The notes beneath the pieces are model-generated. The model searched no databases. It saw only the letters and a list, made by a program, of their open reading frames with translations, and was not told the origin of the DNA. The translations under genes and the position numbers were made by a program. This document shows, piece by piece, positions 6,512 through 39,057 of a stretch of DNA of 64,000 bases. The stretch covers positions 2,728,001-2,792,000 of the forward strand of contig NZ_CP151657.1 in assembly GCF_038405225.1 (NCBI RefSeq). Reading direction: 5' to 3'. Within the stretch, counting starts at the first letter, position 1, and each line of letters opens with the position of its first letter. Source of the DNA: Arthrobacter citreus. GTDB lineage: Bacteria; Actinomycetota; Actinomycetes; Actinomycetales; Micrococcaceae.

Positions 6512-6539
6512 CCGCGAAGGAAGAAGGGTAGGAGCACTC

Positions 6540-6959: not shown

Positions 6960-7047
6960 GGGACGGACTGACTGGCGGGGCGGACGGACGGGGTGGGCGA
7001 CGGGGCTGTCCTAGTCCCCCAGCGTCCGGCTCGTTAGGGAATCCATC

Positions 7048-7339: not shown

Positions 7340-7371
7340 CAGCCGAACCGGCACAACACCCGGCCCTCTGC

Positions 7372-7935
7372 CTATAGCGTGCGCACGACCCGCGCCGGCG
7401 AGCCGACCACCACCGAGTTCGCCGGCACATCCTTTGTGACCACGGCTGCCGCCGCGATCACTGCGTTCTCGCCGACCGTTACGCCGGGCAGCACAGTGGC
7501 ATTGGATCCGATCCACACGTTCCGGCCGATGACGATGGGCGCCGGATGCATGTCGGTGCGGCGGCCGGGATCAAGGTCATGGTTGAGCGTGGCCAGGACG
7601 GTGTTGTGGCCAATGAGGCAGTCATCCCCAATGACCACGCCGCCCTGGTCCTGGAACTTGCATCCGGCGTTGATGAACACCCGCTTGCCGATGGTGGTGT
7701 TCTTTCCGAAGTCCGAGGAAAACGGTGGAAAGACGGTCACGGTTTCGTCGATGTCCCTGCCGGTTAGGGCGGCCAGGAGTTCCCGGACCCGCGCCGGTTC
7801 CTGGTAGCCGCTGTTCAGCTCGCCGGTGATCCGCAGTGCCTCCTGGCTAACCTGGTGCATGGCCGCGTGCAGCGGGGAGCCCCCGGTGATGGTCTCGCCG
7901 GCGTTCAGCGCCGCGAGCAGGTCCTCGAGATCCAT
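7372..7935 (-). CDS. sugar O-acetyltransferase (maltose/galactoside acetyltransferase family)
   Basis: 187 residues. The N-terminal helical cap (to about 60) precedes a left-handed beta-helix of hexapeptide repeats such as IGDDCLIGHNTVLA, IGRNVWIGSNATVLPG and VGENAVIAAAAVV. The catalytic histidine is in TLNHDLDP, where the family has it. It transfers acetyl from acetyl-CoA to a sugar hydroxyl. The ATG has AAGGA close upstream. It lies 89 bases downstream of nanE on the same strand and may be the last gene of the sialic acid operon, which would make an acyl-amino sugar a plausible substrate, but this is inference from position only. Confidence 0.85.
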   Translation of the reverse strand: MDLEDLLAALNAGETITGGSPLHAAMHQVSQEALRITGELNSGYQEPARVRELLAALTGRDIDETVTVFPPFSSDFGKNTTIGKRVFINAGCKFQDQGGVVIGDDCLIGHNTVLATLNHDLDPGRRTDMHPAPIVIGRNVWIGSNATVLPGVTVGENAVIAAAAVVTKDVPANSVVVGSPARVVRTL

Positions 7936-8024
7936 GGGTGTCCTTCCGATCAGAGCTGTCCTTCGGACCTTAGCCCGGCAGCACCTGTCCCCGCAGCTTT
8001 TAGGCCAGCACCTGCCGCCGGCAC

Positions 8025-8699
8025 CTACCCCTGCAGCGCGCCGGCAAACCACCCGGTGATCGTGGTCGGATGCGTAATGGCGGTCCCGACGACGACGGCG
8101 AACGCCCCCGCGTCCAGGCAAGCCCGGGCCTGCGCCGGGGTGTGGATCCGTCCTTCGGCGATCAGCGGCCGGCCCAGGTCGAGGGCCGCAATCTCCGCGA
8201 TGAGTTCCAGGTCCGGACCATCGGTCTTCGGCCGCTCGCCCGTGTATCCGGCCAGCGTCGTGCCAATCACGTCAGCTCCGGCGTCGGCCGCCGCCTTGGC
8301 GTCGGCGGCGGACCCGCAGTCTGCCATCACCAGTGCCCCGGTCTGTTCATGCAGGGCCGCGATGGTTTCGGCGAGGTTGCGGCCGTCCGGCCGGGGCCGG
8401 CGGGTGCCGTCAATGGCAACAATGTCGGAACCGGCCGCGGCGCAGGCCAGCGCGTGGTCAAGCGTGGGAGTGATGAAAACGCCGTCGGTGCCGTCTTTCC
8501 ACAGCCCGATCATCGGCACATCCACCGCATCGCGTGTCTGTTCCAGGTCCTGGATCCCCTGGATCCGGACGGCGGCAGCACCGCCGATGACGGCGGCCTG
8601 CGCCATCTGCGCCATCGTGCGCGGATCGCGCATTGGCTCTCCGGGATAGGCCTGGCAGGAAACGATCAGCCGGGAGGCCAGAACGGAAAGGTCAAACAT
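8025..8699 (-). CDS. nanE: N-acetylmannosamine-6-phosphate 2-epimerase
   Basis: 224 residues, a TIM barrel of the NanE family that converts ManNAc-6-P to GlcNAc-6-P. Visible family blocks: LIVSCQAYPGEPM near the N-terminus, AAVRIQG, IGLWKDG (catalytic Lys), FITPTLDHA, IVAIDGTRRPRP, VMADCGS, DVIGTTLAGYT, LIAEGRIHTP and AVVVGTAITHPTTIT. The start is the ATG at 8699 with AGGAG 7 bases upstream. The upstream kinase gene ends within the first codons of this gene (8-base overlap), so the two are translationally coupled. It sits between NanK and an acetyltransferase in the nan operon. Confidence 0.93.
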   Translation of the reverse strand: MFDLSVLASRLIVSCQAYPGEPMRDPRTMAQMAQAAVIGGAAAVRIQGIQDLEQTRDAVDVPMIGLWKDGTDGVFITPTLDHALACAAAGSDIVAIDGTRRPRPDGRNLAETIAALHEQTGALVMADCGSAADAKAAADAGADVIGTTLAGYTGERPKTDGPDLELIAEIAALDLGRPLIAEGRIHTPAQARACLDAGAFAVVVGTAITHPTTITGWFAGALQG

Positions 8700-9765
8700 G
8701 GTGGTGCTCCTGTGATGCGTTGAGTTCAGCGGAAAGACGGTCAAAGGCGAATTTGGCGGCTCCCACGATGGCGGCGCTGGAGCCGAGGTCGGCCGGAACC
8801 ACGGGGAGGTCCGCCAGCGGGTCCATCAGCTCGGCACGCAGCGCGGCCCGGAACGGTGTCCACCACAGGTCACCGGCTCCGGCCACGCCGCCGCCGACCA
8901 CCACAACGGACGGATCCAACATGTTCGCGAGTCCGCCCACGGCCTGTCCGGCGGCTGTTGCTCCCGTGGTCAGGGCACGAAGGGCCAGCGGGTCACCGGC
9001 GCCCGCCATCTCGGCCACTTCCCGTCCCGTCACGCTCCCGGCGATGGCGTCACCGCCGGCAGGCTCACCGCCGGCAGGCTCCCCGCCGACGGTCTCCCCG
9101 CCGACGGTCTCCCCGCCGGCAGTTTCCCCGTCCACGAGTCGCCGGTACAGCGCGGCGATGGACGGCCCGGAGGCGATGGCCTCCACGTGCCCGGCCCGCC
9201 CGCAGCTGCACGGCAGCGGACGGCCGCCGTCGTCGTACGCGAAGGGTGAGGCCAGATGCCCCACGTGCCCGGCCACCGCCCGTGCCCCCAGATGCGGTCC
9301 GCCATCGAGAATCAGGGAACCGCCGACGCCGGTTCCCACGGCCACGAGCAAGCTGGAGTCCGCGCCGGCGGAGGCACCCCTCCAGTGCTCGCCCAAGTTA
9401 TGCGCATGCACGTCGTTGACCGCGTAGGCGGGCAGCCCGGACTGCTCAGCGACATGCGCCGCCAGCGGAGTGCCCGCCCAGCCGGTGAGGGAATCGGTGG
9501 CCGAAACCACCGATCCGTCCCGGGCGTCAATGACGCCGGCCGAACCAATGCCCACCGCCACCGGATCCAGCCCAGCAGCGCGGGCCTGGGCCAGCAGGGC
9601 GGTGACCAGCCCGACGGCGGTGGCCAGGATGGCTGCCGCTCCGGCGGCCGCGGGGGTGGGCCGGGACTCGACGGCGTGCACTGTGCCGGTGGCGTCCACA
9701 ATGCCGGCGGCCGTTTTGGTGCCGCCCAGGTCCACCCCGATGACGCACTGTGAAGCGGAGGGCAT
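8692..9765 (-). CDS. nanK: ROK-family N-acetylmannosamine kinase-like protein
   Basis: 357 residues. ROK sugar kinase with the phosphate loop VDLGGTKTAAGIVD at about 10-24 and the zinc motif CSCGRAGHVE, in which the third cysteine of the classic CxCGxxGC is histidine. By position between nanE and the lyase it should phosphorylate ManNAc to ManNAc-6-P. It is longer than typical NanK because a Gly-Glu-rich insertion of pentapeptide repeats (GGETV/GGEPA) of about 25 residues follows the zinc motif; it is encoded by a 15-bp tandem repeat. The start ATG at 9765 is 2 bases from the lyase stop. Glucokinase-like specificity cannot be excluded from sequence alone. Confidence 0.85.
   Translation of the reverse strand: MPSASQCVIGVDLGGTKTAAGIVDATGTVHAVESRPTPAAAGAAAILATAVGLVTALLAQARAAGLDPVAVGIGSAGVIDARDGSVVSATDSLTGWAGTPLAAHVAEQSGLPAYAVNDVHAHNLGEHWRGASAGADSSLLVAVGTGVGGSLILDGGPHLGARAVAGHVGHLASPFAYDDGGRPLPCSCGRAGHVEAIASGPSIAALYRRLVDGETAGGETVGGETVGGEPAGGEPAGGDAIAGSVTGREVAEMAGAGDPLALRALTTGATAAGQAVGGLANMLDPSVVVVGGGVAGAGDLWWTPFRAALRAELMDPLADLPVVPADLGSSAAIVGAAKFAFDRLSAELNASQEHHHV
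9049..9123. repeat. 15-bp in-frame minisatellite inside the ROK kinase gene
   Basis: Five tandem 15-base units (9049, 9064, 9079, 9094, 9109) of the form CTCCCCGCCGACGGT with a few substitutions; two adjacent units are identical. Each unit encodes one GGE(T/P)(A/V) pentapeptide, so gain or loss of units keeps the frame. Confidence 0.9.
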
Positions 9766-20399: not shown

Positions 20400-20417
20400 C
20401 TCTCAACCGAAATATTG

Positions 20418-20535
20418 TCCGGCGGTGACCTACTCTCCCACATCCTCCCGGATGCAGTACCATCGGCGCTGTGGGTCTTAGCTTCCGGGTTCGGAATGGG
20501 ACCGGGCGTTTCCCCCACGCTATGACCGCCGTAAC
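20418..20535 (-). rRNA. rrf: 5S ribosomal RNA
   Basis: About 118 nt. On the minus strand it begins GTTACGGCGGTCATAGCG, contains CCCGGTCCCATTCCGAACCC and ends GGTCACCGCCGGAC, so the terminal helix closes (GGCGGT with ACCGCC). Ends are set by this helix and may be off by a few bases. Confidence 0.95.
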
Positions 20536-20829
20536 CCTTCCACCCACACCACCCCAACAAACAAACCTCAGGGTGAGGGGAAAACAATGGTCACAACAAA
20601 ACACACAAAACCAATAACAACATTGAGTGTTTCAAAGCGAAGTTATAACTGTAATTATACGGCACACCAGAACCCGCAAGGGTGTGGTGGTGCCGGTTCC
20701 AGGAGTGACAAACCACACGGGTTTGTTATCCGGGAACCACATAGTGGACGCAAGCAGCACATGATCTAACACAACCCTTATTTGGCGGGAACGTTTGAAG
20801 TCGTTTCCTGCCCAGATTGTGGTGTGGTG

Positions 20830-23985
<3,156 letters not shown>

Positions 23986-24120
23986 ACCACAAAGATCAAT
24001 AAATATTATCGCTATCGAGAAAACCATGACAACACCGGAAACACACCCATCAAGGGCACATCCCCGGATCACCAGGTTTATCTGAAATTGCACTTAATAA
24101 TTTTAAGATGCTCGCGTCCA

Positions 24121-24140
24121 CTATGTAGTTCTCAAACAAC
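24121..24140 (-). promoter_or_regulatory. boxA antitermination element in the 16S-23S spacer
   Basis: On the minus strand the sequence reads GTTGTTTGAGAACTACATAG, the actinobacterial boxA bound by NusB/NusE. The spacer (about 23986-24525, 540 nt) contains no tRNA gene that I can see and otherwise only AT-richer leader-like sequence. Confidence 0.75.
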
Positions 24141-24521
24141 AACCCCGTCACACCCCGCCACCACCACGTATTCACCGTGGAAGTCTTAGGTCTGCGCAGG
24201 AACAATCAGAAACAACACGGTACCCGTGCCACCTCCAACCAAACGGCTGTCAGTTCATACGGTCCTGTTGTCTCAGGACCCAACAGTGTGCCAAACGGTA
24301 AAACCCGGTACTCGAGGCACCGGCAGCTCTTTCCAACCACAACCATCCCCACAAGTGGGAACGTACACGGCGTACTCATGCTGCCAGGCTCAACGCCGGG
24401 CACCTGCTCATTGATATTCCACCCTTGAGCACCCACCGAAGAACAAATGTCTTACGATATGGGCATCTCCTGCAAAGACCGCATCCAACACTGTGGAAGG
24501 ACACAAAATCCTTGAGGTGCT

Positions 24522-26055
<1,534 letters not shown>

Positions 26056-26805: not shown

Positions 26806-27948
26806 CTAGTTGCCGCCCTCGGCCAGGGTCACCTCGATCGGCTCGTAGTCCGCACCCTTGGTGTCCACCCCTTCTTCTTCCAGCTCTGCCAGCGCCTTCT
26901 CCACATACTCGTTGGTGTAGGCGGTCTCCGGCGGTTCCGTGGTCAGGATGGTGGTTCCCGTTTCGTTCTCTGTTCCCATGGCGATGTCCACGGTCTGCTT
27001 CCAAGCCGCCTCGTCGATCATCCCGACGCCGTTGGTGGAGGGGAAAATCAGCTTGTTGGTTTCATTGGTCATCCACAGCTGGTGGCTCTGGCCCAGGGTT
27101 GACCCGGAGTCGGTGACAATTGTGGCCGCTTCCTCCGGATTGTCCTTGGCGTAGATCCAGCCCTTGATGGCCGCCTTGACGAACGCCGTGGTGGTGTCCT
27201 GATACTCGGTGTCCTCTGCCAGCCGCGCGGCGTCCGCCCAAATGGCGTCCTGCAGCATGGCGGAGCCTTCTTCGTTCCAGTCGATAACCGTCAGGTCCTC
27301 GGGCTGGTACAGCTCCCCCGTCTCAGGGTTCACCGTCTCCAGCACCTGCGCGTACTCGTTGTAGGTCATGGCCTGGGCCGCATCGATGTCCCCGGACAGG
27401 AAACCGTTCATATCGAAGGCCTGCTGAATCAGCTCAATGTCCCCCGCTTCCACCCCTGCGTTCTTTAGGCCGGCGAAGAGCTCCCATTCATTGCCGTACC
27501 CCCAGGAACCCACCTTTTTACCCGCGAGATCCTCCGGGCCGTCGATGCCGGAATCCGCCATCGCCACCTGCAGCGTTGCGCTGCGCTCAAAGATCTGCGC
27601 CACGTTGGTGATGTTGGCGCCCTGTTCAATGGAACCCAGCACCTTCGGCACCCAGGAAATGGCGTAGTCCACATCGCCGGAGGCCAGCACGTCCTGCGGG
27701 ACGATGTCCGCGCCGCCCTCAACAATTTCCACGTCCAGGCCCTCGTCCTCAAAATATCCCTGGTCCAGCGCCGCGTAGTAGCCGGCAAACTGGGCCTGCG
27801 AAAACCACTGCAGCTGGAGTTTCACCGGAGTCAGTCCCTCTGCGGATTCTGTCTCGTCCGCGCCGCTGCCCGAGGCACAGCCGGCCAAAACCAGGACTGC
27901 GGCGGTTCCTGCCGCTGCGGCGGTGCGGATGCGTTTTCCACTTGCCAT
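26806..27948 (-). CDS. NMT1/THI5-like ABC transporter substrate-binding lipoprotein
   Basis: 380 residues. Signal peptide with lipobox VLAGC (Cys at about 24). The mature protein starts with VKLQLQWFSQAQFAGYYAALDQGYFEDEGLDV, read in parts, the hallmark of the NMT1/THI5-like group that binds pyrimidine, riboflavin, thiamine-precursor or hydantoin-like rings. An Asp/Glu-rich acidic surface fits an extracellular actinobacterial protein. GGAGG lies 7 bases before the ATG. It is the last gene of a seven-gene operon with a dihydropyrimidinase and a ureidopropionase-like enzyme, so a pyrimidine or hydantoin ligand is more likely than thiamine precursor. Confidence 0.88.
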   Translation of the reverse strand: MASGKRIRTAAAAGTAAVLVLAGCASGSGADETESAEGLTPVKLQLQWFSQAQFAGYYAALDQGYFEDEGLDVEIVEGGADIVPQDVLASGDVDYAISWVPKVLGSIEQGANITNVAQIFERSATLQVAMADSGIDGPEDLAGKKVGSWGYGNEWELFAGLKNAGVEAGDIELIQQAFDMNGFLSGDIDAAQAMTYNEYAQVLETVNPETGELYQPEDLTVIDWNEEGSAMLQDAIWADAARLAEDTEYQDTTTAFVKAAIKGWIYAKDNPEEAATIVTDSGSTLGQSHQLWMTNETNKLIFPSTNGVGMIDEAAWKQTVDIAMGTENETGTTILTTEPPETAYTNEYVEKALAELEEEGVDTKGADYEPIEVTLAEGGN

Positions 27949-28026: not shown

Positions 28027-28854
28027 TCAGTGCCGGGAGCTGTATTTCTCCAGTGCGGCGGTGGCACAGAAGAACACCAGGCCGACGACGACGGCACCCA
28101 GCACGTAGGCCCACGCCAGTGTGTAGTTGCTTCCGGCGGCTGCCGAGGTGATGGACTTGCCGAGTCCGCCCACCGGACCGCCAAAGTACTCGGCAATCAG
28201 CGCGGAAATCACGGCCAGTGATGACGCGATCCGCAGCCCGGTGAACATGTAGGGCACGGCGCTGGGCAGCGTGACGCTGCGGGTGACCTGCCAGCGGCCG
28301 GCCGCGTAGGAGCGCATGAGGTCCCGGTGCACCGGAAGGACCTGCCGGAACCCGCGCAGCGAATTCACGTACACCGGAACAAAAACGGCAATTCCCGCCA
28401 CGATCTGCCGCGGTGCCTCTTCGCCGGCGCCGAACATCGTGTAGAGCACCGGGGCCACGGCCACGATTGGCACCACCGACAGTGCCGCCACCAACGGTCC
28501 GGCGAGGCGGTCAAAGACCGGCAGGAACGCGGCAACGACGGCGGCGAGGACGCCCAGCAGGCCGCCTGCCACCAGTCCCACCGCGGCATTGCCTCCGGTC
28601 ACAAGTGATGCCGAGACGATGTTGCCCAGGTTCGCGAAGAACGCCGCGGCGATATCGAACGGTCCGGGGAGCACAAACGGGGGAACCGCCAGCACGCTTA
28701 CCGCGGCCTGCCACAGCAGCACCACCGCAACTCCCAGCAGCAGCGGAAGCAATGCCTGCCGGCCGCCGCCAACTGCCCGCACCAGCAGCGCCGGAGACGT
28801 GGCCGCCACCGCGGCGGGGGTGGTTTTAAGCCCGGAGCTCTCCAGCGCCGTCAC
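28027..28854 (-). CDS. ABC transporter permease (SsuC/ThiX type), copy 2
   Basis: 275 residues. BPD_transp_1 permease with about six TM helices; a first helix near LLPLLLGVAVVLLWQAAVSVL and the cytoplasmic EAA loop DLMRSYAAGRWQVTRSVTLPSAVPYMFTGLRIA, read in parts. The ATPase gene overlaps its start by 4 bases. Together with the first permease gene it probably forms a heterodimeric channel. Confidence 0.9.
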   Translation of the reverse strand: MTALESSGLKTTPAAVAATSPALLVRAVGGGRQALLPLLLGVAVVLLWQAAVSVLAVPPFVLPGPFDIAAAFFANLGNIVSASLVTGGNAAVGLVAGGLLGVLAAVVAAFLPVFDRLAGPLVAALSVVPIVAVAPVLYTMFGAGEEAPRQIVAGIAVFVPVYVNSLRGFRQVLPVHRDLMRSYAAGRWQVTRSVTLPSAVPYMFTGLRIASSLAVISALIAEYFGGPVGGLGKSITSAAAGSNYTLAWAYVLGAVVVGLVFFCATAALEKYSSRH

Positions 28855-29690
28855 CGCGTTTCCACTCCACGGAGGGCGGTCACTGCGGTGCCGTGCAGGG
28901 ACTCGCGGACTGCGGTGATGGCGGCGTAGAACGCCGTGTCCTCCCGCAGGTTCTCGCCGCGCTCCCCCGCCGCTCCGAGCCGCATGGACAGCACATCCTT
29001 GATCCGTCCCGGCCGGGCCGACATCACGAACACGCGGTCGGAGAGAAATACCGCTTCCGGAATGGAGTGGGTGACAAAGACGACGGCGGCACCGGTTTCC
29101 GCGCAGATGCGGACCAGTTCGTTCTGCATCCGCTCACGCGTCATCTCGTCGAGGGCACCAAACGGCTCGTCCATCAGCAGCAGCCGGGGGCTTTCCGCCA
29201 GCGACCGGGCGATGGCCACGCGCTGCTGCATGCCTCCGGACAGCTGGTCCGGAAAGGAATCGGCAAATTCGGTGAGTCCGACCATCCCCAGGAGTTCCTC
29301 GGCCCGGCTCTTCCGGGTCTTCGCCGGGACACCGTGCAGCTGCAGCGGCAGTTCGATGTTCGCGCGCACCGTGCGCCAGGGCAAAAGTCCGGCCTGCTGA
29401 AAGGCGATGCCGTATGCCTGTTCCTTCCGGGCCTGCCGTGCGGTCCGGCCGAAAACGCTGATGGTTCCACTCGTCGGTTCATCAAGATCCGCGATCAGGC
29501 GCAGCAGCGTGCTCTTGCCGCAGCCCGATGGTCCGATGAGTGACACAAATTCGCCCGGCGCCACCGTCAGGTTGGCCGCCTCGAGTGCCGTGACGGAGCC
29601 CTTGCCGGTGGTGAAAACCCGGTGGACGTCCCGGACGTCCACCGCCGGTTGCTGTGCATCCGGTGCTGCCGCTTCTGTTGATGCGTTCAT
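28851..29690 (-). CDS. ABC transporter ATP-binding protein (SsuB/ThiZ type)
   Basis: 279 residues: [19 protein letters not shown] (Walker A), FQQAGLLPW (Q-loop), LSGGMQQRVAIARSLAE (signature), LLLMDEPFGALDEMTRERM (Walker B, D-loop) and VTHSIPEAVFLSDRV (H-loop). The pattern is that of taurine/nitrate/pyrimidine-precursor importers. ATGA overlaps on both sides couple it to the two permease genes. Confidence 0.92.
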   Translation of the reverse strand: MNASTEAAAPDAQQPAVDVRDVHRVFTTGKGSVTALEAANLTVAPGEFVSLIGPSGCGKSTLLRLIADLDEPTSGTISVFGRTARQARKEQAYGIAFQQAGLLPWRTVRANIELPLQLHGVPAKTRKSRAEELLGMVGLTEFADSFPDQLSGGMQQRVAIARSLAESPRLLLMDEPFGALDEMTRERMQNELVRICAETGAAVVFVTHSIPEAVFLSDRVFVMSARPGRIKDVLSMRLGAAGERGENLREDTAFYAAITAVRESLHGTAVTALRGVETR

Positions 29691-30577
29691 GCTGCTTGCT
29701 CTCCTCGGCGGTAGCGGTGCAGGAAAAGTCCCAGGACAGTGGTGGCGGAGACTGCGGCCAGGCCCAGCAGGACAGCCCCGAAGATGGGTGCCCAGGGTTT
29801 GCCCGGGTCACCGCCGGCCGCGGCGGCGTATTCCACGATCATTCGGCCAATCCCACCCTTGAGGCCGATCGACACTTCGGCCACGACGGCGCCGATCACG
29901 GCGTTGGCGGCGGCCAGGCGAAGCGCCGGCAGCAAGTAGGGGATGCTGGCGGGCAGCCGCAGGAACAGGAAGCTGCGCCACCATCCCACCGAGTAGCTGT
30001 GCATCAGGTCCAGATGGCTGACCTGCGGAGACGCGAATCCGCGCAGGGCGCCGATCGCCACCGGGAAGAAAGCCAGATATGAGGCGATGACGGCCACCGA
30101 CATCCAGTTTTCCCAGCTGAAGGAGCCGATCTCCAGCTGGGATCCCCAGCGGCGCACCAGCGGGGCGATGGCGATGAGGGGAACGGTTTGGCTCAGGATG
30201 ATCCAGGGCAGCAGGGCGGACCCGGCCGCCCGGAACCGCTGCATGACCATGGCCAGGCCCAGCCCCACCAGGACTCCGATGAACCAGCCCACGGCCGCGA
30301 TCCCCAGGGTAAAGGCCGCCGCCGCCAGGACAGCCAGCCACAGGGGCTGCGCCCCCGCGGCCGAGGTGACCGGTTCCGCCAGTCTTGCGAGCATGGTCCA
30401 GACGTGGGGCATGGCAAGGTCGGTGGTGCGCGGCAGGAGCGGCATGCTCCCCACGCTGACGCCGTCGTCGGGCCCGGCAAACTTGTACGCTTCCCACAGC
30501 AGAACCGGAACCAGGACGCCGGCGGCGGCCCAGCCGATCCGAGCCGCCGGCGGTGTCCTGGTTCCGGCCCGGGTCAT
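29687..30577 (-). CDS. ABC transporter permease (SsuC/ThiX type), copy 1
   Basis: 296 residues with a first TM helix at about 10-28 (WAAAGVLVPVLLWEAYKF) and the BPD_transp_1 domain; EAA loop DLMHSYSVGWWRSFLFLRLPASIPYLLPALRLAAANAVIGAVVAE, read in parts. It is more divergent than usual from its partner permease, so the pair is likely ancient. The start overlaps the stop of the LLM oxidoreductase gene (ATGA). Confidence 0.9.
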   Translation of the reverse strand: MTRAGTRTPPAARIGWAAAGVLVPVLLWEAYKFAGPDDGVSVGSMPLLPRTTDLAMPHVWTMLARLAEPVTSAAGAQPLWLAVLAAAAFTLGIAAVGWFIGVLVGLGLAMVMQRFRAAGSALLPWIILSQTVPLIAIAPLVRRWGSQLEIGSFSWENWMSVAVIASYLAFFPVAIGALRGFASPQVSHLDLMHSYSVGWWRSFLFLRLPASIPYLLPALRLAAANAVIGAVVAEVSIGLKGGIGRMIVEYAAAAGGDPGKPWAPIFGAVLLGLAAVSATTVLGLFLHRYRRGEQAA

Positions 30578-31590
30578 GCCGTTGCGCTCACGGTCTCGCG
30601 CAGTGCCGGGATGACGCTCTCGCCGTAGACCCGCAGGGTTTCCTCCTTGTTGTCGTGCTGGAGATACCCGGCGAACTGGGTTACGCCCAGCGCCTTGAGC
30701 TTTTCGAGCTTTTCAATGTGCTGCTCCGCCGTGCCCATCAGGCAGAAACGGTCCACAATCTCGTCCGGCACAAAGGCGGCATGAGTGTTGCCCGCCCGGC
30801 CGTGCTCGTTGTAGTCGTAGCCTTCCCTGCCGGCGATGTAGTCGGTGAGCGCCTGGGGCACGCTGGAGTCCGCGCCGTACTTGGCCACGATGTCGGCAAT
30901 GTGGTTGCCCACCATGCCGCCGAACCAGCGGCACTGCTCCCGCATGTGCTCCCAGTCATCCCCTATATACATGGGCGCCGCTACACAGAACTTGATGGCC
31001 ATGGGGTCACGCCCGGCGGCTGCCGCGGCGGACCGCACGGCGGCGATCATCCATTCGGCGATGTCCACGTCCGCCAGCTGCAGGATGAAGCCGTCACCCA
31101 CCTCGCCGGTCAGCTTCAGCGCGAGCGGGCCGTAGGCGGCCACCCACATTTCCAGTTCCGAGCCCTTGCTCCACGGGAACTGGATGGTTGCTCCGTTGTA
31201 TTCCACCGAGCGGGAGTTTGCCAGCTCACGGATGACGTGAATTGATTCCCGCAGGGTCTTCAGGGTGGTGGGCTTGCCGTTGCTGACGCGCAGCGCCGAG
31301 TCGCCCCGGCCGATCCCGCACACGGTCCGGTTGCCGTACATCGAGTTCAGGGTGGCGTAGGTGGAGGCGGTGACGGTCCAGTCCCGGGTGGCCGGGTTGG
31401 TGACCATGGGACCCACCTTGATGTTCTGGGTCTCGGCCAGGATCTGGCTGTAGATGACGTACGGTTCCTGCCACAGGATGTGGGAGTCAAAGGTCCAGAC
31501 GTAGTCGAACCCATACTCCTCGGCCCTTTTGGCGAGCGCCACCGTTCGTGCGGCGGGCGGATTGCACTGCAGTACTGCTCCGAAATCCAT
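30574..31590 (-). CDS. LLM-class putative F420-dependent oxidoreductase in the pyrimidine/hydantoin operon
   Basis: 338 residues, luciferase-like TIM barrel. MDFGAVLQCNPPAARTVALAKRAEEYGFDYVWTFDSH, read in parts, VGPMVTNPATRDWTVTAS, GNRTVCGIGRGDSALR and MWVAAYGPLALKLTGEVGDGFILQ are the LLM blocks. I associate this sequence type with the TIGR03842 group of predicted F420-dependent enzymes, from memory. It is 11 bases after the dihydropyrimidinase gene and overlaps the permease gene. A hydride transfer to or from a pyrimidine ring (uracil/thymine to dihydropyrimidine) would fit this operon, which has no dihydropyrimidine dehydrogenase genes. FMN instead of F420 cannot be excluded. Confidence 0.85.
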   Translation of the reverse strand: MDFGAVLQCNPPAARTVALAKRAEEYGFDYVWTFDSHILWQEPYVIYSQILAETQNIKVGPMVTNPATRDWTVTASTYATLNSMYGNRTVCGIGRGDSALRVSNGKPTTLKTLRESIHVIRELANSRSVEYNGATIQFPWSKGSELEMWVAAYGPLALKLTGEVGDGFILQLADVDIAEWMIAAVRSAAAAAGRDPMAIKFCVAAPMYIGDDWEHMREQCRWFGGMVGNHIADIVAKYGADSSVPQALTDYIAGREGYDYNEHGRAGNTHAAFVPDEIVDRFCLMGTAEQHIEKLEKLKALGVTQFAGYLQHDNKEETLRVYGESVIPALRETVSATA

Positions 31591-31601
31591 GCTTTCCGCT
31601 C

Positions 31602-33023
31602 CTAGATCAGGTACTGGCTCGGGGCACGGCGGATGTAGCGGCCGTGGCTCTTGGTCCCGAGATATTCGTTGTCATTGATGAGGATGCGGCCGCGGGACAG
31701 CACGGTGTCAACGTGCCCGTCGATCTCGTAGCCCTCCCATGCGGAGTAGTCCATGTTCATGTGGTGGGTCTTCTCCAGCCCAATCGACGTGTGCCCCGCC
31801 GGGTCATAGATCACGACGTCGGCGTCAGCTCCCGGCGCGATCACGCCCTTGGTGCCGTACATGCCGAACATGCGGGCCGGCGTCGTGCTGGTGATCTCCA
31901 CCCAGCGCTCGAGCGTGATCTTGCCGTCCACCACACCCTGGTACATCAGGTCCAGGCGGTGCTCCACCGATCCGATGCCGTTGGGGATCTTGGAGAAATC
32001 CCCCACCCCCATGTCCTTCTGTCCCTTCATGCAGAACGGGCAGTGGTCGGTGGCCACCATCTGGATGTCGTTGGTGCGAAGCGACTGCCACATGTGGTCC
32101 TGGTGGTGTTCATGCTTGGACCGCAGCGGCGTGGAGCAGACGTACTTGGCGCCCTCAAAACCCTCGGCGCCGAGCTGGTCCTCCAGGCTCATGTACAGGT
32201 ACTGCGGGCATGTTTCACCGAAGACGTTCTGGCCGTTGTCCCGGGCGGCGGCCAGCTGCTCAACGGCCTGTTTCGCGGAAACGTGCACCACGTACAGGGG
32301 CGCCCCGGTGAGGTTTGCCAGCATGATGGCCCGGTGGGTGGCTTCCTCCTCCATTTGCCAGGCCCGTGCCACCCCGTGGTAATAGGGATCGGTTTTGCCC
32401 TGTGCCAGCAGTTCGCTGACCATGGCGTCGATGGCCGGGCCGTTCTCGGCGTGCATCATGGTCATCAGCCCGGTTTCGGCACCGACCCGCATGGCCTTGT
32501 AGATCTGGGCGTCATCGCTGTAAAAAACGCCCGGGTAGGCCATGAACAGTTTGTAGCTGGAGACCCCTTCATCGATGAGCCCGGCCATGGCCTTCAGGGA
32601 GTCGTCATTGACGTCCCCCACAATCTGGTGGAAACCGTAATCGATGGCGCATTCCCCGGCGGCCTTCTCGTGCCATGCGGCCAGCCCGTCCATCACGCGC
32701 TCGCCGTAGCGCTGGATCGCGAAGTCGACGATCGTCGTCGTGCCTCCCCAGGCGGCGGCACGGGTTCCGGTTTCAAACGTATCGGAGGCCTCGGTGCCGC
32801 CGAACGGCATCTGCATGTGGGTATGGGCATCGATCCCGCCGGGAATTACATACTTGCCCGTGGCGTCCAGGACTGTGTCCACGGAGCGGGCGAGGTCATG
32901 TCCCAGCAGTGTTGACCCCGGTGCAAGCACCGCGGCAATCGTTTCGCCGTCAATGAGAACGTCCGCTTCGCTGCGGCCGGTGGAGGTGACAACTGTTCCT
33001 CCGGTGATCAGTGTTGTACTCAA
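31602..33023 (-). CDS. hydA: dihydropyrimidinase / D-hydantoinase
   Basis: 473 residues, cyclic amidohydrolase with a complete binuclear metal site: His67 and His69 (GGIDAHTHM), the lysine to be carboxylated Lys158 (SSYKLFMAYPG), His191 (HAEN), His247 (HVSAK) and Asp325 (VATDHCPF). It hydrolyses 5,6-dihydrouracil/thymine to N-carbamoyl-beta-amino acids or 5-substituted hydantoins to N-carbamoyl amino acids. The start is TTG 33023 (AAGGA 7 bases upstream) rather than TTG 33044, which has no ribosome binding site. Between the ureidopropionase-like and LLM genes. Confidence 0.93.
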   Translation of the reverse strand: MSTTLITGGTVVTSTGRSEADVLIDGETIAAVLAPGSTLLGHDLARSVDTVLDATGKYVIPGGIDAHTHMQMPFGGTEASDTFETGTRAAAWGGTTTIVDFAIQRYGERVMDGLAAWHEKAAGECAIDYGFHQIVGDVNDDSLKAMAGLIDEGVSSYKLFMAYPGVFYSDDAQIYKAMRVGAETGLMTMMHAENGPAIDAMVSELLAQGKTDPYYHGVARAWQMEEEATHRAIMLANLTGAPLYVVHVSAKQAVEQLAAARDNGQNVFGETCPQYLYMSLEDQLGAEGFEGAKYVCSTPLRSKHEHHQDHMWQSLRTNDIQMVATDHCPFCMKGQKDMGVGDFSKIPNGIGSVEHRLDLMYQGVVDGKITLERWVEITSTTPARMFGMYGTKGVIAPGADADVVIYDPAGHTSIGLEKTHHMNMDYSAWEGYEIDGHVDTVLSRGRILINDNEYLGTKSHGRYIRRAPSQYLI

Positions 33024-33101
33024 AACGACATCCTTGTCTGTCAAAAGGCTCGGCCTGTCAAAGCGCCTCTGGCACGCGTCTGCGGGTAAGCCGCCGGAAC
33101 G

Positions 33102-33950
33102 CTACGGAGCCGTAATCGGCGCGTAGGCGTCCGGGCGGCGGTCGCGGTAGAACTGCCAGTTGTTGCGGGCGGTGCGCACCAGGTCCATGTCCAGGTCCCG
33201 GATCATCAGTTCATCGCCGTCGCGGGAGCCGATGTCGCCCACGTAGTTGCCCTGCGGGTCCACCATGTACGACGTTCCATAGAAGTCCACGGCTTCATCG
33301 CCGAACTCGTTCGTTTCCGCGCCCACCCGGTTGGGGACCACCACGTAGTATCCGTTGGCGGCAGCAGCCGTGGGCTGTTCCAGTTCCCACAGCCGGTTGG
33401 ACAGGCCCGGCTTGGACGCATTCGGGTTGAAGACAATCTGGGCGCCGTTCAGGCCCAGGACACGCCAGCCCTCGGGGAAGTGGCGGTCGTAGCATATGGT
33501 CAGGCCCACGGTTCCGACGGCGGTTTCAAACACCGGCCAGCCCATGTTTCCGGGCCGGAAGTAGAACTTCTCCCAGAACTTCTCGACGTGCGGAATGTGG
33601 TTCTTGCGGTACTTGCCCAGGTACGTTCCGTCGGAGTCGATAACCGCTGCCGTGTTGTACAGGACGCCGGGCTGGTCCTCTTCATAGATCGGCAGGATGA
33701 TCACCATGTTGTGCTCGGCGGCAAGCTTGGAAAAACGTTCGGTGAGGGGTCCCGGAACCTTCTGCGCGTAGTCGTAGTACTTGTTGTCCTGCACGATCCC
33801 GAAGTACGGTCCGTGGAACAATTCCTGGAAACAAATGATCTGCGCACCCTCGGCAGCTGCCTTGCGGACAAACTCCTCGTGCTTGGCAACCATGGACTCT
33901 TCATCGCCGGTCCAGGTTGTTTGGGTCAAGGCTGTGCGGATAATCGTCAT
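33102..33950 (-). CDS. nitrilase-superfamily amidohydrolase, beta-ureidopropionase-like
   Basis: 282 residues. The Glu-Lys-Cys triad is present: Glu43 (CFQELFHGPYF), Lys116 (YRKNHIP) and Cys153 (TICYDRHFPEGWR). The wording around the cysteine and FNPNASKPG, EQPTAAAANGYYVVVPNR matches beta-ureidopropionase/N-carbamoyl amidases, which release CO2 and ammonia from the product of dihydropyrimidinase. GGAGG lies 4 bases before the ATG at 33950; an in-frame start 7 codons upstream has no ribosome binding site. First gene of the operon; divergent from the F420-0 transporter genes. Confidence 0.9.
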   Translation of the reverse strand: MTIIRTALTQTTWTGDEESMVAKHEEFVRKAAAEGAQIICFQELFHGPYFGIVQDNKYYDYAQKVPGPLTERFSKLAAEHNMVIILPIYEEDQPGVLYNTAAVIDSDGTYLGKYRKNHIPHVEKFWEKFYFRPGNMGWPVFETAVGTVGLTICYDRHFPEGWRVLGLNGAQIVFNPNASKPGLSNRLWELEQPTAAAANGYYVVVPNRVGAETNEFGDEAVDFYGTSYMVDPQGNYVGDIGSRDGDELMIRDLDMDLVRTARNNWQFYRDRRPDAYAPITAP

Positions 33951-34292
33951 TGTGCCTCCTATTAGCGGCAAACGTGCCGCGGTCTTGATCGGCCTGTTGA
34001 AGGGCCGTTATCAGTCTTAGTGCTGAACATTTCCCCAACATTTCCGCCGCGTTAAAAAGCTGAACTGCGTGGCCGCGGCGTCTGTTCATCCTTGACGCTA
34101 GGGCCGGAACCCGCAAGGGTTTTTAAACTGTTGCGCGCAGTCCCGGCGAGGCGGATAATGGCCGCCGCGCCACACTCCCGAAACAATGGGGTGCTAGCCT
34201 CCTCAATAGATCACCGGCCGGAAATGGCCGGTAGAACTGGTCTGGATTTGGACCATAGATCCCTCCGTTTTCCATTCCACCTGCGAGGAACT
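33951..34292. promoter_or_regulatory. shared divergent control region of the pyrimidine and F420-0 operons
   Basis: 342 bases with no gene. Two AACATTTCC copies at 34026-34034 and 34037-34045 (11-base period, one helical turn) lie about 80 bases before the nitrilase start and could bind a regulator. ACCGGCC-GGAAAT-GGCCGGT (34213-34232) is an inverted repeat 60 bases before the transporter ATG. No riboswitch type (cobalamin, TPP, FMN) was recognised. No clean -35/-10 pair is evident for either side. Confidence 0.5.
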
Positions 34293-35312
34293 ATGAACCG
34301 ATCCCCTTCCCCTGCCCTTTCCATGCTCCTGGCCGCCGGAGTTGCCGCACTTGTTGGCTGCGCGGGTCCATCCACGCCCTCCGGGACCACACCGGATACC
34401 AACACCGCCGCCGCAGCCTCGGACGCGCCGCATGCATCGGCGTCGTACCCGATCACCGTGACCAACTGCGGTACCGAAGTGAGCCTTGAGTCGCCGCCCG
34501 AACGAATTGTGACGATCAAATCCACAGCGCTGGAAACACTCCTGGCCCTTGGCCTGGGCAGCAAAGTGGTTGGCTCCGCTTTCTCCGACGGCCCGGTTCC
34601 CGGGCCATTGGCCACCGACGCCGCCTCGGTGCCCGTCCTCTCCGATGCTGCGCCCACCCAAGAGGCGGTGCTGGAACTCGAACCGGACTTCATTTACGCC
34701 GGCTGGGAATCGAACCTCAGCTCAGATACCGCCGGTGAACGGGATTTCCTGGCATCGCTGGGAATCGGCACCTACGTGTCGCCCGCGGCATGCCGGGAGG
34801 AAGGCGTTCCCGGAAAGCTCGGCTTTGAGGACGTGTTCGCAAACATCACCGAGGCCGGGGCCATCTTCGGCGCCCCTGACGCCGCGGCCGCACTGATCGC
34901 CGAACAGCGGAAAGTGCTCGACGGCGTGACACCGGCCGGCGGGGGCCAAAGCGCCTTTTGGTTCTCCTCGGGACGGGACACCCCGTACGCGGGAGCCGGG
35001 CTGGGTGCCCCGCAGATGATGATGGAGGAGCTCGGCCTGGAGAACATCGCCGCGGATGTCCAGGAGCCCTGGGCGTCACTGAGCTGGGAAACGGTGGTTG
35101 CCGCCAATCCGGACGTCATCGTCCTGGTGGACGCGGACCGCAACACCGCCGAGTCCAAGAAGGAACTGCTCGCTTCCATGCCGGCCACGGCCAACATGGA
35201 CGCCGTGATAAACGAACGCTACCTAGTCCTGCCCTTCGCGGCGGGAGAAGCCGGAGTGCGCAACGCCGAGGCCGTGGCGGACCTCGCCGACCAGCTGTCC
35301 GCACTGTCATGA
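34293..35312 (+). CDS. proposed F420-0 ABC transporter substrate-binding lipoprotein (FecB-like)
   Basis: 339 residues. Lipoprotein signal with lipobox ALVGC (Cys about 24), an Ala/Thr-rich linker, then a Fe3+-siderophore/B12-type binding fold: ITVTNCGTEVSLESPPERIVTIKSTALETLLALGLGSKVVG, read in parts, LELEPDFIYAGWES and SWETVVAANPDVIVLVD. GAGGA lies 4 bases before the ATG. It is followed without gap by permease and ATPase genes and then by cofE and an F420-dependent oxidoreductase gene; this gene order is that of the TIGRFAM 'proposed F420-0 ABC transporter' (recalled, not searched). A siderophore ligand is the main alternative. Confidence 0.82.
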   Translation: MNRSPSPALSMLLAAGVAALVGCAGPSTPSGTTPDTNTAAAASDAPHASASYPITVTNCGTEVSLESPPERIVTIKSTALETLLALGLGSKVVGSAFSDGPVPGPLATDAASVPVLSDAAPTQEAVLELEPDFIYAGWESNLSSDTAGERDFLASLGIGTYVSPAACREEGVPGKLGFEDVFANITEAGAIFGAPDAAAALIAEQRKVLDGVTPAGGGQSAFWFSSGRDTPYAGAGLGAPQMMMEELGLENIAADVQEPWASLSWETVVAANPDVIVLVDADRNTAESKKELLASMPATANMDAVINERYLVLPFAAGEAGVRNAEAVADLADQLSALS

Positions 35313-36391
35313 CCGCCGTGCGGACCCGGTCCCGGCCCGTCGCCGCACCAGCGGCACGGGAGGTGGGCGTCCCGGCACCCCGCCGCCGGTTCCGCACCGG
35401 ACCGGCAGCTGTGCTCCTTTCTGCCGTCCTGGTCTTTTCCCTCGCGGCGGCAACGGCGGTGGGCCCGGCGGACATCAGCGTTGCGGACGCCTTCCGCTCC
35501 ATTGGCGCTCATCTGGGTTTCGGCGCCAGCCCGCTGTCCGTGCTGCATGACGGCATCATCTGGGAGCTGCGGCTGCCCCGGGTGCTGACGGCGGCTGCGG
35601 TGGGTGCCGGACTGGCTGTCAGCGGTGCGGTCATGCAGGCCCTGACCCGCAATGCGTTGGCCGACCCGTATCTGCTGGGCCTGTCCTCCGGAGCTTCCCT
35701 GGGCGCCGTCTGTGTGGTGTTGCTGGGCCTGCAGCTGCTGCTGCCGCTGGCGGCCTTCATCGGCGCGCTGGCGGCCTTGGCGGCAACCCTGCTGCTGGCC
35801 CGGCTGGCTGGCGGGCTGACGCCGTCGCGCACCGTCCTGGCCGGAGTTGCGGTCTCTTCGTTGGGCAGCGCACTGACCAGCCTGGTGATTTTTTGGACGG
35901 CCACCGGCGATTCGTACCGGAACATCCTGGGCTGGCTGCTCGGTTCACTCAGCGGTGCGCAGTGGTCCAGCGCCGGGATTGCCGCTGCAGCGCTGCTGGT
36001 GGTGGGGGTGCCGCTGCTGGCCGCGTCCCGGATCCTGGATGGTTTCGCGTTTGGCGACGACGCCGCCTCGGCCCTGGGTCTCAACGTTCCGGCCGTGCGG
36101 TGGACCATGCTGGCCGGCACCGCCCTGCTGACCGGCGCCATGGTTTCCGTCAGCGGTGCGATTGGGTTCATTGGGCTGGTGTTTCCCCACGTGGTGCGGC
36201 TGATCGCCGGTCCCGGGCACCGTTCGCTGCTGCCGTTGTCCGCCCTGCTCGGGGCAATCTTCCTGATTTGGGCCGACACCGCAGCGCGGTATGCGTTTGA
36301 GCCCCGGGAACTTCCCGTGGGCGTGGTGACCGCAGTGATCGGTGCGCCGGTGTTCGCATACGTGCTTGCGCGGCGAAAGGGCGGCGCATGA
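35309..36391 (+). CDS. proposed F420-0 ABC transporter permease (FecCD family)
   Basis: 360 residues with about ten TM helices in the FecCD/BtuC pattern. WELRLPRVLTAAAVGAGLAVSGAVMQALTRNALADPYLLGLSSGASLGA, read in parts, is the family signature at about 80-130, and GFIGLVFPHVVRLIAGPGHR near 290 is the second cytoplasmic coupling region. ATGA overlap with the binding-protein gene and 4-base overlap with the ATPase gene. An Arg/Pro-rich N-terminal tail of about 30 residues precedes the first helix. Confidence 0.88.
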   Translation: MTAVRTRSRPVAAPAAREVGVPAPRRRFRTGPAAVLLSAVLVFSLAAATAVGPADISVADAFRSIGAHLGFGASPLSVLHDGIIWELRLPRVLTAAAVGAGLAVSGAVMQALTRNALADPYLLGLSSGASLGAVCVVLLGLQLLLPLAAFIGALAALAATLLLARLAGGLTPSRTVLAGVAVSSLGSALTSLVIFWTATGDSYRNILGWLLGSLSGAQWSSAGIAAAALLVVGVPLLAASRILDGFAFGDDAASALGLNVPAVRWTMLAGTALLTGAMVSVSGAIGFIGLVFPHVVRLIAGPGHRSLLPLSALLGAIFLIWADTAARYAFEPRELPVGVVTAVIGAPVFAYVLARRKGGA

Positions 36392-37227
36392 ACAGCCCAG
36401 CTCTGGAGGCCGCAGCCCTGGACGTGTCCCTGGGCGGAAAACTCATAGTCGACGGCGTGGACTGCACGGTTCCCGCCGGCGTCCTCTCGGCGCTGGTCGG
36501 GCCCAATGGCGCCGGTAAGTCAACACTGCTGCGCGCGCTGGCGGGCGTCGTTCCCGTGCGCCGCGGGACGGTGCTGTGGCAGGGCCGTGACATGCTGCGG
36601 CTGCCGCGCCGTGAACGTGCCCGCATTGCCGCCCTGGCGGAACAGGAATCCGGCACGGACACGCCCCTGACAGTGCGGGACGTCGTGTCGCTGGGGACCA
36701 TGCCGCACCGCCCGCTGCTGGGGTTCGGCGGCAGTGAAGATGATGCCGATGTGATGAGGGCCCTGCAGTCGGCAGGCGTTCCGGAGCTTGCGGACCGGCT
36801 GTTCGGCGAGCTCTCCGGCGGGCAGCGGCAGCGGGTGCAGCTGGCCCGTGCCCTGGCCCAGAAACCACAGCTGCTGCTCCTGGATGAGCCGACAAATCAT
36901 CTGGACCCGCACGCCCAGCTGACCACCCTGCATTTGATGCGGCGGCTGGCCGGTGACGGCATCGCCGTCGTCGCCGCACTGCATGACCTGACGCACGCCG
37001 CTGCGCACTGTGACCACGTCATTGTGCTGTCCGCCGGCACAGTGGTGGCCGCCGGGGACCCCCGCTCCGTCCTGACCGCCGAGCTGATTCGGACTGTGTA
37101 CGGAGTGGATGCCCATGTGCTGGAACACCCGGCCACCGGCCGCCCGCTGATCGCACTGTCCCTGCCAGCGGAACCCCAAATTGCCCGAAGACCCTCGGAG
37201 GCTTCCTACTCGGGTTCCTCCGCCTGA
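36388..37227 (+). CDS. proposed F420-0 ABC transporter ATP-binding protein (FecE-like)
   Basis: 279 residues: [17 protein letters not shown] (Walker A), [20 protein letters not shown] (Q-loop; Glu-Gln-Glu rather than the usual PQ), [17 protein letters not shown] (signature), [17 protein letters not shown] (Walker B) and [16 protein letters not shown] (H-loop). Vitamin B12/siderophore importer type. Its last 22 bases overlap the 3' end of the convergent cofE gene, a tight packing that suggests the two have long been neighbours. Confidence 0.9.
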
Positions 37228-38048
37228 GCCTCCCCCGGGACAGGGAGTCCGTTGTCGCGGCACGCCGCCGCGTAACCCTCACGCCAGGCCTCGTCGCTGC
37301 CCAGCCGGAACATGTCCTGCTCGGCGGGCCGGATCAGTGACCGGGCGCCGTCGTGCCGGGAGCCCTCCTCATCTCCGGAGCTCTGTCCCAGCGGACGCAC
37401 CAGCTCCGGCAGACCCCGCAGCACCGCAACGGGACATTGGCTGGTCTTGCCCTTGATGAGGTCCGCCGCCGCCGCGATCTCGTCCGCGACGGCGGTCATG
37501 GTCGCCTTCATCTGCTGCCCGAAGGTGTCGGTGTTTCCGCGCAGGTCGGTGATGACGTCCAAGCCGGCAGCGCCGATCGCCGCGTCGGTCTGTCCCTCAC
37601 GCCAGGCCCGGCCCATCGTGTCAGTGATGACCACTCCGACGTCGAACCCCAGGGCCCGCCGCAGCCCCGTACACAGCGCCCGGGCCGAAGCGTCCGGATC
37701 CACGGGCAGCAGCAGCACGGTTCCGGCCGGTGTGTTGCTGTTGTCCACGCCTGCCGCCGCGGCCACGATACCCAGCTTGTTCTCCACAATCCGGGTGACG
37801 CCGCCGGGATGGACCCGGCTGGCGACGAGCCGAACGGTCTCGTTGGTGATGGCCTGCTCCCGGTCCTCCGCCGGGAGCTGACGCCCCTCGGCCTTGGACA
37901 CGATCTTGGAAGTGACCGCCAGGATGTCGCCGGGGCGCAGCGCAGCATCCGGATTGGATCCGGCGGCAGCCAGGATGACCGCCGTCAGATCCGTTCCCGG
38001 GGTTATCTCCCCGATGCCGGGAAGCGTGAACAGCGTGATGCTGCGCAT
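37206..38048 (-). CDS. cofE: coenzyme F420-0:L-glutamate ligase
   Basis: 280 residues, close to archaeal CofE and lacking the C-terminal nitroreductase-like domain that mycobacterial FbiB uses to reduce dehydro-F420-0. Blocks: [32 protein letters not shown] (GTP/substrate region), [32 protein letters not shown] and [24 protein letters not shown] (metal binding). It adds gamma-linked glutamates to F420-0 with GTP. The ATG at 38048 is 4 bases past the LLM oxidoreductase stop, same strand, so the two are one operon. A Ser/Gly/Asp-rich insertion (about 225-240) precedes a C-terminal [14 protein letters not shown] helix. Confidence 0.9.
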
Positions 38049-38052: not shown

Positions 38053-39057
38053 TCAGCGCTTGAGCGCGGGCAGCACGGTGCGGGAGAAGACATCGATCCA
38101 CTCCCGCTGGTTCCGGCCCACATTGTGCAGGTAGATGCGGTCAAAACCCAGATCCACAAACTTCTGGATATACGCCCGGTGCACGTCGGGGTCGCTGGAG
38201 ATCACCATCCGCCCCTCGAAGTCTTCGGGGCGGACCAGCTTGGCCATCTGCTCCAGTTCAAACGGTGAGCGGATGTCTCCCTTGGGGAATTTCATGCCGC
38301 CGTTGGGCCATTCCACCATGGCGTTGGTCAGCGCTTCCTCATCCGTCTCAGCCCAGCTCATATGCAGCTGAAGGACCTTGGGCATGGTGTCCGGGTCCTT
38401 GCCCGCCTCGCGTGCTCCGGCGTCGAAACGGTCAAAGAGCATGCCGATTTTTTCCAGTGGTGCCCCCACCGTAATGAGGCCGTCCGCGTGCCGGCCGGCG
38501 CGCTTTGCGGTCACCGGGCCGGCGGTGGCGACCAGGATTTCGGGGGCCACCTCCGGCATGGTCCACAGCCGGGTGGATTCCATCTTGTAGAACTCACCCT
38601 TATGCCGCACATCCTTGCCGGCAAGGGAATTGGTGAAGAGTTTCGTGATGATTTCTATGGCCTCGAACATGCGGTTGATCCGCTCGGGTGCTTCGGGCCA
38701 GTACTGGGCGGTGATGTGCTCGTTCAGTGCTTCTCCGGACCCCAGCCCCAGCCAGTGCCGGCCGGGATACATGGCGGCCAGAGTTGCCGATGCCTGCGCC
38801 ACCATCGCCGGATGCCACCGGAAGGTGGGAGCGGTGACTCCGGGACCGATATCGCCTTTGGTCCGCTCGCCAAGCGCCGACAAAACGTTCCACACAAATG
38901 CTGACTGTCCCTGTGCCGGCACCCACGGCTGGAAATGGTCCGCAGCCATGACTCCGGAAAAACCCCTGCTTTCGGCATATTCAGCGAGCGCCACCGCTTC
39001 GGTGGGGTGGAACTGCTCGAGCATTGCCGCGTAACCAATTGTTAAAGAAGAAGTCAT
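38053..39057 (-). CDS. F420-dependent LLM oxidoreductase (G6PDH/TIGR03557-like)
   Basis: 334 residues, LLM TIM barrel closest in look to the F420-dependent glucose-6-phosphate dehydrogenase group: [49 protein letters not shown], read in parts, then [41 protein letters not shown], also in parts. Asp and His in AADHFQPW and TxPTFRxHP contact F420 in that family. The AGGA is 7 bases before the ATG. Directly upstream of cofE in one operon, so probably the main user or recycler (F420 to F420H2) of the salvaged cofactor. The exact substrate is open; it may not be glucose-6-phosphate. Confidence 0.87.

Follow-up and report, generated by a model that had tools for sequence, protein, structure and literature searches.

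In a 64,000-nucleotide stretch of the Arthrobacter citreus genome (NCBI RefSeq assembly GCF_038405225.1, contig NZ_CP151657.1, positions 2,728,001 to 2,792,000; hereafter the window), an operon holds a gene for the second step of reductive uracil and thymine degradation and a probable one for the third, and none for the dihydropyrimidine dehydrogenase of the first. Which protein, then, reduces the ring? The candidate is an oxidoreductase of the luciferase-like monooxygenase (LLM) superfamily, family TIGR03842, encoded within the operon. We propose that it would reduce the C5=C6 bond of uracil and thymine by direct hydride transfer from reduced coenzyme F420 (F420H2), in place of dihydropyrimidine dehydrogenase. 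The dihydropyrimidinase and the beta-ureidopropionase-like amidase would then open the ring and release a beta-amino acid, and an NMT1-type ATP-binding cassette (ABC) importer, or NCS1 symporters in other lineages, would take up the pyrimidine. We infer the substrate, the cofactor and the direction of the reaction from comparative genomics, and put the probability that the LLM protein is an F420H2-dependent uracil/thymine reductase, in a form of reductive pyrimidine degradation not described before, at roughly three in four. The genes of the operon are as follows:

33102..33950, minus strand: beta-ureidopropionase-like carbon-nitrogen hydrolase (amidase), step 3 (PF00795)
31602..33044, minus strand: dihydropyrimidinase / D-hydantoinase, step 2 (TIGR02033)
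30574..31590, minus strand: TIGR03842 LLM oxidoreductase (step 1), proposed to reduce uracil and thymine with F420H2; its nearest solved relative by sequence and by fold is Mer
29687..30577, minus strand: ABC importer permease 1 (PF00528)
28851..29690, minus strand: ABC importer ATPase (PF00005)
28027..28854, minus strand: ABC importer permease 2 (PF00528)
26806..27948, minus strand: NMT1/THI5-type substrate-binding protein (PF09084, 131 bits)

The operon is present as the sequence-only reading had described it: dihydropyrimidinase, beta-ureidopropionase-like amidase and ring-compound importer are contiguous on one strand, seven genes in a row, with gaps of 57, 11, -4, -4, -4 and 78 bases from the amidase to the binding protein. 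The LLM gene does lie directly between the dihydropyrimidinase and transporter genes, separated from the former by 11 bases and overlapping the first permease gene by 4. The closest solved relative of the binding protein is the formyl-aminopyrimidine binding protein 3ix1 (E=1e-17), and its ligand is probably a pyrimidine. The genome, with a completeness rating of 100%, consists of a single contig (3.88 Mb) and contains 14 matches to PF00296; the family name alone therefore proves little, and the case is built on position and linkage.

The absence of preA/preT (pydA/B) genes, first remarked for the operon, extends to the whole genome. No PreA-type enzyme was found there: PF01180 (DHO_dh) gives one full match, PyrD-like as judged by eye, and one fragment below the cut-off, and the best match to the PreA model NF006183 has E=1e-7. 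That the genome encodes a canonical dihydropyrimidine dehydrogenase at some other site had been named beforehand as the finding that would count against the proposal, and neither search revealed one. In a sample of 197 genomes of the phylum, PreA exceeds its cut-off in two, neither of which has an LLM protein over the cut-off; in one (G196, stretch L203) the PreA gene lies about 1.3 kb from dihydropyrimidinase, and in the other the match is on a 3.8 kb contig and contains a stop. We rejected the idea of PreA and TIGR03842 as mutually exclusive alternatives, two PreA-positive genomes being too few.

Related operons were examined in two sets. From the phylum sample, 40 of 44 places with an LLM gene over the cut-off were fetched, each as a stretch 3 to 20 kb long; none lies in the order of the window. 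The four omitted are the window and single places on G184, G095 and G092. The named close relatives, the 80 best among 587 confirmed, are biased to near kin. Neighbouring genes were scored by identity thresholds: 45% for class III aminotransferase (matches at 28-33% were excluded) and 60% for glucose-6-phosphate (G6P) dehydrogenase, for which four matches at 57-59% were counted separately. Dihydropyrimidinase occurs in 30/40 of the phylum-wide stretches, class III aminotransferase in 23/40, the amidase in 21/40, an NCS1 symporter in 20/40 and an ABC importer in 12/40; among the close relatives dihydropyrimidinase lies near the LLM gene in 80/80 and the amidase in 79/80. Because dihydropyrimidinase is near the LLM gene in both sets, this gene order is not due to chance. 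In eight of the stretches (L034, L053, L058, L059, L062, L063, L065 and L069) the LLM gene is accompanied by an NCS1 symporter, in most cases an aminotransferase, and a remoter dihydropyrimidinase at 43-46% identity.

The LLM protein scores 597 bits against TIGR03842 (curated cut-off 295), a family whose function is left open in NCBIfam (June 2026), where it is a hypothetical equivalog. Searched against solved proteins, it finds Mer in the first six places by sequence and the first eight by fold, with matches over the full length (E=2e-35 and E=1e-22, respectively); Adf and Fgd2 come next in the fold list, and flavin mononucleotide (FMN) enzymes then follow, mixed with Fgd1. Active-site positions C and D of Mer (carboxamide and Asp) and its catalytic Glu6 were taken from excerpts of PMC11094777, in which the carboxamide residue is Gln178; the aligned Mer sequence counts Asn at 178. 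In the sequence alignment Mer Asp96 corresponds to D97 of the window protein and the carboxamide position to Q171, and both residues are invariant in 20/20 family sequences, Leisingera and Paracoccus included. Glu6 is replaced by V6, and by V, T or C in 20/20; activity on methylene-tetrahydromethanopterin (methylene-H4MPT) is not expected because this Glu is missing, and a Mer function was rejected. The conserved D97 and Q171 would fit a ternary complex in which F420H2 passes a hydride to a substrate that can do without Mer-type activation, and the invariant Y153, H230, D233, Y258 and H263 are candidate proton donors.

Linkage to F420 genes is seen most completely outside the phylum. Plasmid searches at E <=1e-60, the sole search beyond the phylum of the window, returned ten records from Leisingera, one from Paracoccus and one from Streptomyces, and no others; two, one and one of these, respectively, were inspected, the Streptomyces record being without gene annotation. 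In Leisingera caerulea and L. aquaemixtae the LLM gene terminates a cofG-cofH-cofD-cofC-cofE-npdG-LLM operon, and facing it are genes for an NCS1 symporter, dihydropyrimidinase, a Zn hydrolase, an aminotransferase and a transhydrogenase; Paracoccus alcaliphilus has cofG-H-D-C-E-npdG-LLM and then an ABC transporter. In another phylum, therefore, the LLM gene accompanies the entire F420H2 supply line.

Within the order of the window, sampled by 248 genomes, CofD is present in 52/62 genomes with the LLM gene vs 40/186 without it (Fisher p about 2e-18, ancestry ignored), and the two genes lie within 25 kb of each other in 20/52 genomes that have both. CofD, E, G or H occurs in the fetched stretch beside the pyrimidine operon in 39/80 close named relatives. 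In the phylum sample CofH exceeds its cut-off in 36/42 genomes with the LLM gene vs 60/155 without (hand count, ancestry ignored); among the six exceptions two have CofG and CofD over the cut-off (G139, G194), two CofD only (G178, G168), and the present genome and G115 have neither. A relative of F420-dependent G6P dehydrogenase, at 57-59% identity, is near the LLM gene in 4/40 stretches outside the order.

Two further features of the Leisingera records (L181 and L205) were observed. NAD(P) transhydrogenase genes lie in the pyrimidine cluster at about 6245-9271 and may give npdG the NADPH for F420H2. An iron-chelate ABC transporter, FecC/FecE-like at 37-44% identity and probably a siderophore system, is found at 22.6-26.5 kb, about 7 kb downstream of the LLM gene and beside TonB genes.

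The proposal of an F420-dependent LLM reductase in place of dihydropyrimidine dehydrogenase is thus strongly supported by linkage in two phyla, co-occurrence with CofD and similarity to Mer, yet it had assumed that F420 is available, and here the genome speaks against it. CofG, CofH and CofD are absent from the genome by profile search, the only match to the CofD model being a 20-bit fragment; by this inventory the host does not make F420, though CofE is present. It follows that F420 must come from outside, or that the cofactor differs here. Beyond the pyrimidine operon lies a second group of genes:

34092..35312, plus strand: FecB/BtuF-type substrate-binding protein, proposed F420/FO importer (4mlz E=6e-86; long open reading frame, true start probably further in)
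35309..36391, plus strand: FecC-type permease, proposed F420/FO importer (motif and position, beside FecB in relatives; start is the likely ATG)
36388..37227, plus strand: FecE-type ATPase, proposed F420/FO importer (motif and position, beside FecC in relatives)
37206..38048, minus strand: CofE, F420-0:gamma-glutamyl ligase (TIGR01916; start is the likely ATG)
38053..39057 (open reading frame to 39156), minus strand: relative of F420-dependent G6P dehydrogenase, proposed F420 reduction (TIGR03557)

CofE scores 217 bits against TIGR01916 (cut-off 180.65) and aligns to the solved CofE proteins 2g9i/2phn at E=1e-27. The G6P dehydrogenase relative scores 273 bits against TIGR03557 (cut-off 210) and matches 9hav, titled F420-dependent G6P dehydrogenase of Thermomicrobium, at E=4e-128. 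The FecBCD-type transporter sits between the pyrimidine operon and these two genes, and all of these neighbours probably belong to the same story as the operon. In our proposal F420 would not be made in this organism and would probably enter through the transporter of FecBCD type (34.1-37.2 kb); CofE would lengthen its glutamate tail, and the G6P dehydrogenase at 38.1-39.1 kb would reduce it. The cargo would be FO (7,8-didemethyl-8-hydroxy-5-deazariboflavin) where CofD remains and F420 itself where CofD is missing, as here. Import of F420 by this transporter, which we likewise draw from comparative genomics, seems to us somewhat better supported than not.

The import proposal was weighed in the order sample, where FecB is present in 64/248 genomes after the three weakest matches (G408, G428 and G245; E 1e-50 to 1e-55) were dropped, and CofH was counted at E <=1e-60, which gave 26 genomes over the cut-off plus 16 whose match is divergent. 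LLM or CofD is present in 102 genomes; of these, CofH occurs in 1/44 with FecB vs 38/58 without (p about 4e-12, ancestry ignored); in family f68 nine of 15 genomes have FecB only, four divergent CofH only and two neither. FecB is present in all ten genomes with LLM and without CofD. The distance from FecB to CofD is at most 25 kb in 23/34 genomes with both and in 5/8 without LLM, and that from FecB to LLM is at most 25 kb in 28/36. Of 20 stretches from 16 FecB-positive genomes, 16 contain FecB, and CofE accompanies it in 14; the exceptions are a stretch that ends less than 3 kb past FecE (G433) and a genome in which CofE is at the LLM locus instead (G324). In G227 (L195) CofE, FecB, FecC, FecE and CofD are consecutive on one strand, and among the 80 named loci CofG or CofH occurs in 5 and FecB in 30, with no overlap.

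Several FecBCE-CofE modules, mostly with G6P dehydrogenase and with or without CofD, have no LLM gene nearby (L192-L196, L201, L202), which suggests that F420 is spent on other purposes there. The divergent, sub-cut-off CofH-like protein of the 16 genomes lies 4-7 kb from CofD in G345, G269 and G437.

The transporter might instead import iron or a siderophore, its link to F420 genes being accidental and F420 being absent or supplied by some other route. The family is known, from solved relatives, for uptake of iron-siderophores, haem and B12, and 20/64 FecB-positive genomes have neither LLM nor CofD. Against this stand the near-exclusion with CofH, the presence of FecB in every LLM-positive genome without CofD, and the linkage to CofE and CofD, which persists where there is no pyrimidine operon; both of those 20 genomes that were inspected (L201, L202) keep CofE and G6P dehydrogenase beside FecB. 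We consider iron import, on this evidence, rather unlikely.

Other results, like those 20 genomes, weigh against F420 import or against the F420-dependent reductase itself. One genome (G370) has FecB together with a divergent CofH. Seven of the 62 LLM-positive genomes have CofD and neither CofH nor FecB, so import cannot account for every gap; 13 more genomes with CofD and without LLM also lack CofH and FecB, ten of them in family f3. Such genomes may have another route to FO, or genes may have been missed. Linkage is also narrower than it might be: none of the 40 phylum-wide stretches has CofC, D, E, G or H close to the LLM gene, so that its observed association with F420-synthesis genes is confined to the order of the window and Rhodobacterales. 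The structure model of the LLM protein is moderate (predicted local distance difference test score 80) and weak near the presumed active site, at residues 36-41, 96-105 and 263-267. The class III aminotransferase of other families is not found near the window operon, nor, at >=45% identity, in the stretches of the 80 named relatives. Finally, the amidase matches an N-carbamoylputrescine amidase (5h8i, 175 bits) almost as well as it does beta-ureidopropionases (178-196 bits), so that its assignment to step 3 is tentative. In family f3 the combination of CofD with no detected CofH, FecB or LLM was recorded in 10/15 CofD+ genomes (G082, G279, G305, G330, G342, G384, G394, G404, G424 and G434).

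The amidase bears on a second alternative, in which the operon degrades another cyclic ureide, a hydantoin or a modified pyrimidine, and the LLM protein reduces or oxidises that compound, still with F420. The dihydropyrimidinase scores 546 bits against TIGR02033 (cut-off 393), and its matches to solved proteins, D-hydantoinase 4kqn at E=2e-143 and dihydropyrimidinase 3sfw at E=3e-140, are of a kind: the models cannot separate the two activities. The amidase falls below the cut-off of its nearest equivalog (TIGR03381, N-carbamoylputrescine amidase, 246 vs 410 bits); its best solved relatives are 2vhh (CG3027-PA, 196 bits), which we take to be the Drosophila beta-alanine synthase, and the beta-ureidopropionases 8pt4 and 6ftq (178 bits). 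The near tie with N-carbamoylputrescine amidase counts slightly against the reductase and in favour of this alternative. There is also a precedent in the available excerpts of PMC12507026, where an F420-type LLM protein is proposed as yanthine reductase in uricolytic clusters of Chloroflexota. The amidase is, however, far from D-carbamoylases (at most 93 bits); the class III aminotransferase and NCS1 symporter of the phylum-wide clusters are the genes that use of uracil and beta-alanine would call for; and in G196, where no LLM protein passes the cut-off, it is PreA that lies close to dihydropyrimidinase. Degradation of another ureide is, on balance, distinctly improbable.

Still less probable, though not negligible, is that the LLM protein has the same role in the pathway and has switched, in this genus, to FMN or another carrier. 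Such a switch would agree with a genome that cannot make F420 for want of CofG, CofH and CofD, and NCBIfam has an LLM family, flavin_revert, that it describes as FMN-dependent; the G6P dehydrogenase-like protein next door reaches 303 bits against this family, short of its cut-off of 399. The LLM protein itself shows little sign of it: its four nearest named relatives are 86-89% identical (the Arthrobacter ones 89% and 87%), and of 65 positions that do not vary among 19 other members of the family it keeps 63, the two substitutions being G→S and V→I. Moreover, CofE is retained beside the LLM gene, as is a G6P dehydrogenase whose nearest solved relative is an F420 enzyme; the sister genome G283 keeps both there as well, and we know of no use of CofE without F420.

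RutA is likewise an LLM-superfamily protein, the FMN monooxygenase of the Rut pyrimidine route, but an O2-dependent ring opening of that kind deserves almost no credence here and was rejected on family scores and the presence of dihydropyrimidinase: 27 families match, and TIGR03612 is not one of the top 25, hence below 22.9 bits, so that the protein does not class as RutA; the Rut route is not known to use a dihydropyrimidinase, yet one is present; and FMN monooxygenases rank under Mer, Adf and Fgd2, though mixed with Fgd1.

Two other features of the window were noted. A complete 5S-23S-16S rRNA operon lies on the minus strand at 20417-26055, just downstream of the pyrimidine operon. At 61484-63849 a gene with a DPGHDD motif, presumably nucleoside-hydrolase-like, is followed by a transporter-like gene, and the pair could supply free pyrimidines.

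If the F420-dependent reductase is real, uracil use would depend on F420, which would replace the textbook iron-sulfur enzyme route in this bacterium and many relatives; pyrimidine breakdown would gain a new first step, F420 a role in bacterial primary metabolism and TIGR03842 a function. If import is real too, bacteria auxotrophic for F420 would exist in nature, and F420 would have an uptake route, through the first F420 importer known to us. Among the matches listed in openly licensed literature we found no report of an F420-dependent pyrimidine reductase, nor of an F420/FO importer or salvage. To the combined picture we give even odds: F420 would be a traded vitamin, many relatives in the order being without FO synthase (some also without CofD), having a dedicated FecBCD-type importer beside cofE and F420-G6P dehydrogenase, and using F420 for a pyrimidine reductase that takes over from dihydropyrimidine dehydrogenase. 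The excerpts available of an F420 review (PMC8498797) mention trace F420 in Paracoccus denitrificans, its role called minor or niche-specific, and suggest an F420 exporter in Paraburkholderia; the words uracil, hydantoin and dihydropyrimid- are absent from the review. The reductase could be a reason for trace F420 in such Alphaproteobacteria, the genome inspected here being that of P. alcaliphilus.

Among known systems Mer, the F420-dependent methylene-H4MPT reductase, is the nearest solved protein to the LLM protein from end to end and shares the positions of Q171 and D97, and differs in its catalytic Glu6. RutA shares the LLM superfamily and pyrimidine use; it is an FMN monooxygenase of another pathway, and TIGR03842 is not close to it. 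The window transporter resembles FecBCD/BtuCDF-type ABC importers in having a binding protein of that family with permease and ATPase genes adjoining, and differs in being genetically tied to F420 genes and in its proposed ligand, FO or F420. The closest prior work is a 2025 proposal of an F420-type LLM protein in uric acid clusters of Chloroflexota (PMC12507026, excerpts). That putative yanthine reductase is, by description rather than by sequence, also an LLM/PF00296 protein proposed as substitute for an NADH- or ferredoxin-dependent reductase in a ureide pathway; its substrate is purine-derived, its cluster is another one, and it is likewise a proposal. With the Pyd system (PydA, PydB, PydC and PydD) the operon shares the dihydropyrimidinase and beta-ureidopropionase-like steps and, in relatives, the aminotransferase and nucleobase transporter. 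PydA/PreAT, in the excerpts of PMC7332683, is a flavin and iron-sulfur enzyme that uses NAD(P)H or ferredoxin, with a ferredoxin-dependent PydA variant known, and in its place the window operon has the LLM protein.

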